This document shows positions 1 to 38,643 of a DNA stretch of 38,643 nt, piece after piece; position 1 is the stretch's first letter, and every line of letters starts with the position of its first letter. Location of the stretch: NCBI GenBank assembly GCA_944324915.1, contig CALUYD010000015.1, positions 1 through 38,643 of the forward strand. The letters are read 5' to 3'. A program made the translations under genes and the position numbers. Origin of the DNA: Candidatus Gastranaerophilales bacterium. Its GTDB lineage: Bacteria; Cyanobacteriota; Vampirovibrionia; Gastranaerophilales; Gastranaerophilaceae. Under the pieces are notes generated by a model. It saw only the letters and a program-made list of their open reading frames with translations. It was not told where the DNA came from and ran no database searches.

Positions 1-77
1 TGGTGGGCCATCCTGGACTCGAACCAGGGACCTCACCCTTATCAGGGGTGCGCTCTAGCCACCTGAGCTAATAGCCC
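1..77 (-). tRNA. tRNA-Ile (anticodon GAT)
   Basis: Read on the minus strand, the 77 bases fold as a complete tRNA. The acceptor GGGCTAT pairs with ATGGCCC (one G-U pair), the anticodon loop CTGATAA gives anticodon GAT, the T arm is CCTGG-TTCGAGT-CCAGG, and CCA is encoded at positions 1-3. This is the tRNA reading AUC/AUU. In many bacteria this gene sits in the 16S-23S spacer, but here the upstream neighbour is argS and no 16S 3' end is present. Whether tRNA-Ala or 23S follows cannot be seen because the window ends at the CCA. Confidence 0.96.
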
Positions 78-276
78 TTATATTGTTTGTTAAACTTATT
101 TAATTGTCACTTTAGTCTATTGAACTTTCACCCGTTAGTCTGGAATCCCACCCAGAGCACGTGAGCTAATAGCCCTTATATTGTTTGTTAAACTTATTTA
201 ATTGTCACTTTAGTCTATTGAACTTTCACCCGTTAGTCTGGAATCCCACCCAGAGCACGTGAGCTAATAGCCCTTA
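65..276 (-). repeat. 98-bp tandem repeat carrying the tRNA-Ile 5' end
   Basis: Positions 65-162 and 163-260 are identical 98-bp units, and 261-276 begins a third. On the minus strand each unit junction contains the first 14 bases of the tRNA (GGGCTATTAGCTCA). After that, the two upstream copies diverge from the tRNA, lack a pairing D-stem and have no anticodon arm, so they are not tRNA genes. Each unit also holds the AT-rich stretch lying directly in front of the real tRNA and a short hairpin (TCTGG, 8-nt loop, CCAGA). Slippage duplication of the tRNA promoter/5' region is the simplest reading. An assembly artefact cannot be excluded from one sequence. Confidence 0.9.
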
Positions 277-313: not shown

Positions 314-342
314 AGATTACCAAGAACAAAATTTAAAGTCAA
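314..342 (-). promoter_or_regulatory. possible promoter reading into repeat and tRNA-Ile
   Basis: On the minus strand TTGACT (337-342) is followed after 17 bases by TAATCT (314-319). The -35 is good and the -10 only 3/6. It lies just after the argS stop and would transcribe the 98-bp repeats and then tRNA-Ile. Co-transcription with argS is the alternative. Confidence 0.35.
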
Positions 343-2034
343 CTACATTTTTTCAACAGGATTAACTCCGATTAAATTAAGCATAGTAGACATAATTATT
401 CTAAAGCAATTAACCAAAGATAATTTCATTAGGCTATCTTGGGTATCTTCAGATAATACTCTTGTGTAATTGTAAAAATGGTGGAATGAATTTGCTAATT
501 CTGTTAAATATTTGCATAGCATATAAGGAGCTCTATACTTAACAGCGTTTGCTAAAAGCGCTTTTCCTTCTTCCATTTTTAAAATCAGAGCTTTTGTTGC
601 TTCATAGCTTTCTTGCGATAAATTTTCAAACATACTTAATATATTTGGATTGTTATTGAATTTATCGATTTCTTCTTTTGTAAGTAGCGCTTGAAGCTCT
701 GTTTTATTATCTACATCCAATCTTTTTTCGGTTGCTTTTCTTATAATCGAGCATGCTCTTGCATGTGCATATTGAACATAAAATACAGGGTTTTTATCTG
801 ATTGAGATTTAGCCAAATCAATATCAAAATCAATAGTTGTATCTGATGATCTCATTAACATCCAAAATCTTGTAGCATCAACTCCAACTTCTTCAATCAA
901 ATCATCAAGAGTAACCATTTTTTTACGTTTGCCCATTCTTTGTTGTTCGCCGTCTTGGATTAAATTAACTAATTGACCCAAAAGCACTTCAAGTTTATTT
1001 GAATCATATCCTAGAGCGTCAATTGCTGCTTTCATTCTTGGAATGTAGCCATGATGATCTGCGCCCCAGATATTGATTAATCTTTCAAAACCTCTATCTA
1101 ATTTGTTTTTATGATATGCAATATCCGCTGTAAGATATGTGTTTTTGCCGTCTGTTTTGATTAAAACTCTATCTTGGTCATCTCCATAGTCTGAGCTTTT
1201 AAACCAAACAGCGCCGTCTTTTTCATATATCTTGCCTGATTTTTTCAAAGTTTCAAGACATTTATCAACTTCTTTGTTTTCGTATAATGAAAGTTCAGAG
1301 AAAAATAAATCAAAATGTGTTCCAAACTTCTCAAGCAATTCCTTTTGAAGTCTTAGCATATCAGCTTTAGCAAATTCTGCATAAGGCAATGTTGATTTTT
1401 GTTCTATATATCTTTTAGCGCAGTCAATTAAGTATTCTCCAGGGTACATATCTTCTTCAAGTTCTATGTTTTCACCTTGAAGTTGGCGAACACGAACTTC
1501 TAAAGATTTTCCGAGTTTATTAATTTGATTTCCGGCGTCATTTATATAAAATTCTTGAAATACGTCATAATTACAATATTTCATAATATTGGCTAAAGCA
1601 GAACCCAATGCTGCCCATCTGCCATGTCCTATGTGGAATGGACCTGTCGGGTTTGCGCTAACATATTCAATGTTAACTTTTTCACCATGTCCAATATCGG
1701 ATTTTAGATAATTTTCTTTTTTTTCTAAAATGTTTTTAACAACTTCATTTAAAAATTCTTTTTCTAATTTGAAGTTGATAAAACCTGCAACAATATTTAT
1801 TGAGAAATTTTTTGGCTCAATATGTTTAACTATAGTTTGAGCTATTAATGGCGGTGCCATTTTTGCTGTTCTTGCAAGAGCAGAAATATTAATTGCAAAA
1901 TCTCCAAAATCTTTATTTTTTGGAGTATCGCAAACTAATTCAAAATTAATCTCTTGAGTTTCATTTAATTCTTTTAATTCAATCGCTTTTTCAATAGCTT
2001 CTTTTGTAATATTTATAAAATAATTCTTTAACAT
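343..2034 (-). CDS. argS: arginyl-tRNA synthetase
   Basis: Class I aminoacyl-tRNA synthetase that charges tRNA-Arg in the cytosol. The protein has 563 residues, the normal length. It has the N-terminal ArgRS-specific domain (about 1-110), the active-site motif SANPTGPFHIGHGRW with HIGH at 134-137, and a KMSKS-region MGKRKK at 367-372, degenerate as is usual in ArgRS. A helical anticodon-binding domain follows and ends in the typical LNLIGVNPVEKM. The ATG has no Shine-Dalgarno sequence. A candidate promoter (TTGATT, 18 bp, TAAAAT) ends only 9 bases before it, so the mRNA leader may be almost absent. tRNA-Ile follows downstream on the same strand. Confidence 0.97.
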   Translation of the reverse strand: MLKNYFINITKEAIEKAIELKELNETQEINFELVCDTPKNKDFGDFAINISALARTAKMAPPLIAQTIVKHIEPKNFSINIVAGFINFKLEKEFLNEVVKNILEKKENYLKSDIGHGEKVNIEYVSANPTGPFHIGHGRWAALGSALANIMKYCNYDVFQEFYINDAGNQINKLGKSLEVRVRQLQGENIELEEDMYPGEYLIDCAKRYIEQKSTLPYAEFAKADMLRLQKELLEKFGTHFDLFFSELSLYENKEVDKCLETLKKSGKIYEKDGAVWFKSSDYGDDQDRVLIKTDGKNTYLTADIAYHKNKLDRGFERLINIWGADHHGYIPRMKAAIDALGYDSNKLEVLLGQLVNLIQDGEQQRMGKRKKMVTLDDLIEEVGVDATRFWMLMRSSDTTIDFDIDLAKSQSDKNPVFYVQYAHARACSIIRKATEKRLDVDNKTELQALLTKEEIDKFNNNPNILSMFENLSQESYEATKALILKMEEGKALLANAVKYRAPYMLCKYLTELANSFHHFYNYTRVLSEDTQDSLMKLSLVNCFRIIMSTMLNLIGVNPVEKM

Positions 2035-37916: not shown

Positions 37917-38643
37917 CTAGTTTACGAGAATTATTACTACGCCTGAGCCTCCAGCGCCACCAGAATAGGCTTCTCCGCCTCCGCCGCCTCCGCCGCCTCC
38001 GGTGTTAGTAGCTCCATATTCTCCTGCTTTACCATCGGGTGAACCACGTCCACCCCCGCCTTTGCCACCTGGAAAATATTGAGAACTATGGCCACCGCTT
38101 CCGCCGCCACCGCCAAACCATTCACCATCATATTGAACCCCATCTTGTCCAGGGCTACCACCGTTGCTCTCGCTCCCTGGTCCACCATTTCCACTTCCTA
38201 ATCCACCGGCTTTAAACGTTTGTAGTCCGCCGCCACCGCCAGCTGCTTCCCAAGTTGAAAATTTTGTAGTTTCGCCAGTAGAGCCTCGTCCGTATCTTGT
38301 TCCGCCACTACCCCCATTACCAATGGTAACTGTAAATGATTGATTAGCAGAAAGCTGAAGTATATTACTGTAGGTGTATCCACCGCCGCCTCCGCCTCCA
38401 TTGTCTGCACCGCCGCCACCACCACCGCCAACTAAGAATACTGACACTGTTGCGTTGTTCTTAGCTATAAAGGTGCCAGATGATTTTAAATATATCTTTT
38501 GTTTTCCAGCAGAATTGGTTGTTTCAATTACATTTCCTGAATAAACATATACTAATCCGCTATCTTCTTGTTCACACACTCCATTTTTCAATTCATACCC
38601 ATCATTACATGCACTGCATTGTCCTGTTGTTAATAAACAACTC
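37917..38643 (-). CDS. Cys-rich/glycine-rich surface-type protein, partial
   Basis: The frame stays open to the window edge, so the N-terminus is missing; the apparent TTG start at 38591 is not a true start. The first visible residues (TTGQCSACNDGYELKNGVCE) belong to a C-x2-C...C repeat typical of extracellular Cys-rich proteins. The rest is a glycine-rich domain of about 200 residues with FLVGGGGGGGAD, FTVTIGNGGSGG and a closing GGAGGSGVVIILVN. This matches the Gly-rich domain found in phage tail-fibre and bacterial surface proteins. The glycine codons raise local GC well above the rest of the window. A secreted or cell-surface role is likely. A terminator follows. Confidence 0.82.
   Translation of the reverse strand, partial: SCLLTTGQCSACNDGYELKNGVCEQEDSGLVYVYSGNVIETTNSAGKQKIYLKSSGTFIAKNNATVSVFLVGGGGGGGADNGGGGGGGYTYSNILQLSANQSFTVTIGNGGSGGTRYGRGSTGETTKFSTWEAAGGGGGLQTFKAGGLGSGNGGPGSESNGGSPGQDGVQYDGEWFGGGGGSGGHSSQYFPGGKGGGGRGSPDGKAGEYGATNTGGGGGGGGGEAYSGGAGGSGVVIILVN

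Follow-up and report, generated by a model that had tools for sequence, protein, structure and literature searches.

The window analysed here, a stretch of 38,643 nucleotides, corresponds to contig C15 in the 36-contig MAG of a Candidatus Gastranaerophilales bacterium, an uncultured gut relative of the cyanobacteria, and its base 1 is the 3' end of a tRNA-Ile(GAT) gene. By argS, the nearest relatives of this genome are likewise MAGs of Candidatus Gastranaerophilales. The upstream flank of this gene consists of two identical 98-bp units, each of which opens with the first 14 nt of tRNA-Ile (GGGCTATTAGCTCA); the units agree at 98/98 bases, although both their number and their perfect identity are the assembler's own inferences, as set out below. 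The features of the locus are as follows:

1–77, minus strand: intact tRNA-Ile(GAT), at whose 3' end the contig starts (ARAGORN and Rfam; 77-bp overlap with contig C6)
78–175, minus strand: repeat unit 2, 98 bp, adjoining the tRNA (TRF, unit alignment)
96–109, minus strand: spacer motif of unit 2, TGACAATTAAATAA (85% conserved)
124–157, minus strand: conserved core in unit 2, CTCTGGGTGGGATTCCAGACTAACGGGTGAAAGT (mean between-species identity 81%)
162–175, minus strand: copy of the tRNA's first 14 nt at the start of unit 2
176–273, minus strand: repeat unit 1, the distal one, with the same sequence as unit 2 (TRF, unit alignment)
194–207, minus strand: spacer motif of unit 1, TGACAATTAAATAA (85% conserved)
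222–255, minus strand: conserved core of unit 1 (between-species identity)
260–273, minus strand: copy of the tRNA's first 14 nt at the start of unit 1
314–342, minus strand: putative promoter TTGACT-N17-TAATCT, in terminal argS and ahead of the first unit (position and -35 kept in relatives)
343–2034, minus strand: argS, arginyl-tRNA synthetase, directly upstream and used as divergence yardstick (PF00750, PF05746, PF03485)

The tandem pair with its tRNA starts, as described in an earlier sequence-only reading, is confirmed by TRF (period 98, 2.2 copies, 99% matches, span 60–276), while the start of a third unit, also claimed there, is present as sequence at 260–276 but amounts to TAA followed by the opening tRNA start of the distal unit. 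The -10 element of the putative promoter is too weak in the window for a consensus scan, and the spacer motif TGACAATTAAATAA is presumably boxA-like. Searched with Rfam, the window and 15 unit-bearing loci contain no RNA family except tRNA: in the window RF00391 has no match at the gathering score, and the weak miRNA, ycf2 and leader matches obtained lie far below theirs. A likeness of GGGTGGGA to a T-box, noticed by eye, is dropped, as the flanking geometry is mismatched and Rfam gives no T-box match. The MAG contains no 16S rRNA gene.

The arrangement at tRNA-Ile is not the only one of its kind in the genome. For all tRNA genes that could be fetched with enough upstream sequence, upstream copies of the gene's own first 11 nt were scored. 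In the genome of the window such copies are found upstream of 8 of 36 tRNA genes (Ile, Lys-TTT, Met, Asn, Leu-CAA, Pro-GGG, Pro-CGG and His), compared with 11/1208 (0.9%) when tRNAs are paired with the upstream regions of other genes and 0/36 in the downstream regions, so the tRNA-start copies are not due to chance. A related genome (G001) has them upstream of 4/34 tRNA genes (cross-gene control 0.2%), while a genome from another family (G045) has one in 43, which is at background. The 98-bp unit taken as a whole is not an ordinary dispersed repeat, since a search of the genome returns only the array and a 25-bp match to the tRNA end; the unit itself is thus not dispersed, but the same architecture is seen at other tRNAs. 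A query with nothing but the spacer motif TGACAATTAAATAA retrieves additional arrays from other genomes, at Leu, Pro, Val, Gly and Asn.

Across tRNAs the units are 85–200 bp long, tandem and supplied with internal palindromes. Many also contain a reverse-complement copy of a tRNA arm, such as TGCTCTACCTGCTGAG upstream of tRNA-Lys; this inverted copy is present at Lys, Asn and Phe in the genome of the window, and can also be seen at Leu and Pro. At several sites the flank adjoining the tRNA is duplicated as well, with 28–30 of 30 bases agreeing at Asn, His, Pro-CGG, Phe and Lys and 10.5 ± 2.7 of 30 in a control with different tRNAs. The first unit of the window, at 12/30 bases, shows no duplicated flank above background, and the Ile units contain no antisense (inverted) copy of the D-arm. 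A further motif, GAAAATTRAATA, which we take to resemble the cyanobacterial boxA, stands directly before many tRNAs of the same genome, with or without units (e.g. loci L163, L157 and L148).

Related species carry 0–3 diverged units at tRNA-Ile, located between the tRNA and the conserved promoter in terminal argS, and the array is thus a feature of the lineage and not of chance; this position would place the units in a transcribed leader. Since several related species are without any unit at tRNA-Ile, the Ile unit is dispensable. The Ile units of 16 genomes can be aligned and contain the conserved blocks GGGTGGG and CGGG together with the spacer motif (TGANAATTNAAT). Over 28 genome pairs within the genus, mean identity is 81% in the Ile core and 85% in the spacer motif, while it is 48% in the stretch separating them and 45% at the four-fold sites of argS. 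With 81% against 45% at these sites, the Ile core is either constrained or repeatedly homogenised, and its conservation suggests selection rather than mere tolerance, a point against the reading preferred below. RNAalifold, run on the Ile unit alignment, finds no pair with a compensatory change. Units from one genome resemble each other while those of different species diverge, as the proposal of a recent event or homogenisation would have it; that proposal's appeal to exact identity, however, hinges on an assembly with k=77.

Units at different tRNAs and in different species have a palindromic core in common, here called type A (CACTCTGCCGA-hairpin-GAGAGG), whose tRNA contexts comprise Leu, Phe, Met, Pro, Lys and a pseudo-copy of Ile. 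It occurs in 152 of 386 Cyanobacteriota genomes, all in the family or order of the window, while none is found in the other classes sampled; a reversed-pattern control gives 1 match in the same 386 genomes. In a genus-centred set, all 30 type A loci examined begin directly after a tRNA end, oriented on the 5' side of the tRNA or antisense on its 3' side. High-copy genomes contain up to 61 copies, the number in G111, whose sister genomes have 0; in three high-copy genomes only 5/30 type A loci are near a tRNA, and others sit within other palindrome-like repeats. At L321, L324, L327 and L333, from other genera of the family, the core lies inside a second repeat (GTCATCCTGAGC...GCGAAGGATCT), a pattern that suggests the insertion of one palindrome into another. 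One further copy (L296:3448-3494) is not near any tRNA but is flanked by tail/baseplate genes in the phage-like contig IMGVR_UViG_3300011008_000426. The copies away from tRNAs, together with the one between phage tail genes, suggest that the type A core may be mobile. Its stems contain 726 Watson-Crick and 17 GU pairs in sense orientation and 725 and 14 in antisense, while tRNA acceptor stems contain 5–6% GU; because the stems are nearly pure Watson-Crick and show no strand bias, pairing at the level of DNA is favoured over pairing in RNA.

The units of the window do not contain the type A core. Their own core (type C) differs from it and is found only at tRNA-Ile, with no occurrence found in IMG/VR. 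On the other side of the same tRNA-Ile, a pseudo-tRNA-Ile does carry the type A core, and pseudo-tRNA-Ile copies are located downstream of tRNA-Ile in the genome of the window (G000) and in G002, G016 and G019. At L139/L002 (the C6 end of the window's genome) the pseudo-tRNA-Ile lies directly 3' of tRNA-Ile and its terminator and is split by a type A core and also by a GTGCG..CGCAC hairpin insert, which is present in G002, G016, G019 and G027 too. At L024, L116 and L128, the region 3' of tRNA-Ile carries tandem repeats, with 2–3 copies of a block made up of terminator, hairpin insert and the 3' end of the tRNA.

The reading preferred here, to which we assign a probability of roughly 0.6, is that the array is one case of a class of tRNA-end repeats found throughout the Gastranaerophilales lineage, in which palindromes are lodged at the DNA level in duplicated tRNA ends. 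A unit would comprise a copy of the terminal 10–20 nt of a tRNA, a hairpin-rich core and a copy of the flank, often with an inverted copy of the adjoining tRNA arm, after which the intact tRNA follows. Palindromic repeats may have settled in duplicated tRNA ends as DNA, and the resulting direct repeats would then expand, contract and homogenise by recombination, giving 0–4 copies. Units on the 5' side, as at tRNA-Ile, would lie in a transcribed leader, where they may be tolerated and perhaps exapted. As the type C array has no type A core, inverted D-arm or duplicated flank, its membership in the class rests on architecture and location. Among the proposals of the earlier reading, a scar of an element at the tRNA comes closest of the three, as units recur at many tRNAs and often share a palindromic core, but they are 85–200 bp repeats and not the remnants of a large integrated element; a change in tRNA dosage finds no support, as the decoys are incomplete tRNAs.

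Tandem units built on a tRNA end have long been known mainly from one tRNA locus of E. coli, tyrT. Examined directly, E. coli tyrTV contains 3.1 units of 178 bp, each with the 19-nt 3' end of the tRNA, palindromes and an inverted copy of the T-arm (GGGGAAGGATGAGAAGCTTCGA, three copies over the array; tRNA complement GGGGAAGGATTCGAACCTTCGA). The two systems are alike in that tandem units adjoin a tRNA and each contains a terminal piece of that tRNA, both of which hold for the array of the window. The E. coli units, however, lie on the 3' side of one tRNA type, while those of the window lie upstream and carry the 5' end, and Gastranaerophilales units in general are found with many isotypes, on either side of the tRNA, are restricted to relatives within Gastranaerophilales and share no Rfam family, with the Ile unit lacking an inverted arm. 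RtT (RF00391) matches four times in the E. coli control and has no match at E<=1 in 15 unit-bearing loci. The Gastranaerophilales units follow the same plan as tyrT/RtT but represent a different family. Relatives of the tyrT/RtT repeat elsewhere in enterobacteria are BIMEs, which have been reported to act as attenuators (PMC2965389). REP/BIME elements are likewise short palindromes, scattered over intergenic positions and spreading although they carry no gene themselves; unlike them, the core in the window's genus is found at tRNA ends, and the Y1_Tnp/RAYT transposase domain (PF01797) has 0 matches in the window's genome, one of 24 genus members searched having one. An origin as REP elements mobilised by RAYT is rejected, given the absence of PF01797 from the window's genome. 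No description of Gastranaerophilales tRNA-end repeats was found in the literature searched, a body from which most subscription papers are absent. That a tyrT-type plan is present at many tRNA genes of a distant family, on either side of the gene, makes this a broad phenomenon, and it points to the ends of tRNA genes as favoured places for small palindromic repeats as well as for phages and islands. Both the origin of tRNA-end repeats and their effect on tRNA production thereby become open to comparative and experimental test.

Among the alternatives, the units may be cis-regulatory leader RNAs, where, within the primary transcript, the tRNA-start copy and the antisense arm would base-pair with the tRNA and prevent or slow cloverleaf formation and RNase P cleavage, unit number tuning tRNA output; we regard this as doubtful. 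In equilibrium folding of 20 genes, the mean acceptor-stem probability is 0.81 without units and 0.04 with a gene's own units, compared with 0.55 with the units of other tRNAs and 0.39 with shuffled units, and the strong conservation of the Ile core and spacer motif within the leader fits as well, although the folding effect follows partly from the presence of tRNA-end copies at all. The effect is weak at tRNA-Ile (0.39 with no units, 0.20 with foreign, 0.06 with shuffled and 0.02 with own units), and once pairing span is limited, as a rough proxy for co-transcriptional folding, the acceptor-stem probability returns to 0.42; regulation is therefore held as a rival and not as the main explanation. 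Units also occur on the 3' side of tRNAs, many species have none at tRNA-Ile, and no compensatory pair is seen in the Ile unit. As to the decoy starts and processed leader of the sequence-only reading, their location fits, as the units lie between promoter and tRNA in the readable relatives, while a regulatory role stands as a rival only. Still more doubtful is a lineage-wide regulatory layer in which tandem cis-antisense decoys in tRNA leaders would compete with the tRNA 5' end for folding and RNase P, copy number setting the output of each tRNA. Self-sealing decoys, in which the tRNA-start copy is locked by its own antisense arm, are dropped as a general rule, as equilibrium folding predicts pairing with the real tRNA.

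The units could also be remnants of phages or integrative elements that use tRNA genes as attachment sites, the tRNA-end copy being an old att site. A partial tRNA beside an intact one is the usual mark of integration (PMC9897764), as it is at the att sites of such elements, and one type A core lies within a phage-like contig. Unlike att sites, however, the units are tandem 85–200 bp repeats with internal palindromes, with no integrase gene and no element between the copies (those of the window are 98 bp apart, with no intervening gene); many isotypes have them, on either side of the tRNA, and the type C core is without an IMG/VR match, which together render a remnant quite improbable.

A similarly low probability is given to an origin of the units by tandem duplication of tRNA-Ile together with its leader, followed by decay to shortened pseudo-tRNAs and without the insertion of any separate element. 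On visual inspection, the core of the Ile unit looks like the tRNA from anticodon-arm to T-arm (CTCCAGACTAACGGGTGAAAGTTC in the units of relatives, CCCCTGATAAGGGTGAGGTCC in the tRNA), and the pseudo-tRNA-Ile copies downstream in G000, G002, G016 and G019 are in keeping with such duplication. A decaying pseudogene is, however, not expected to retain 81% identity when four-fold sites retain 45%, and the cores at other tRNAs are clearly unrelated to tRNA.

Contigs C15 and C6 have exactly 77 bp in common, namely tRNA-Ile, at the start of C15 and the end of C6. Because two further contig pairs of the MAG also overlap by exactly 77 bp, the assembler used k=77, with tRNA-Ile as a graph junction. With its TRF span of 60–276, the array has a self-overlap of 119 bp, more than k, and the two-unit count and perfect identity are therefore inferences of the assembler. 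Relatives assembled separately contain one to three units inside long contigs (e.g. G001:C3, 148 kb), and in G001, G010, G019 and G027 the units show differences of a few bases; arrays of such units are real, since independent assemblies hold non-identical units. A loop in the repeat that was unrolled twice where a contig ends in the k=77 assembly would agree with the 77-bp graph overlap and the 119-bp self-overlap, but as an explanation of the array it is very improbable given the non-identical units inside contigs of independent assemblies (G001:C3, G019 and G027). The C15–C6 join is likewise supported, as array, tRNA-Ile, terminator and downstream pseudo-tRNA-Ile form one contiguous stretch in G002, G016 and G019.

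At the other end of the window, 37917–38591 encodes a glycine-rich domain protein (PF21722), within whose gene a GC-rich triplet repeat is located at 37975–38001, in a contig that is otherwise AT-rich.
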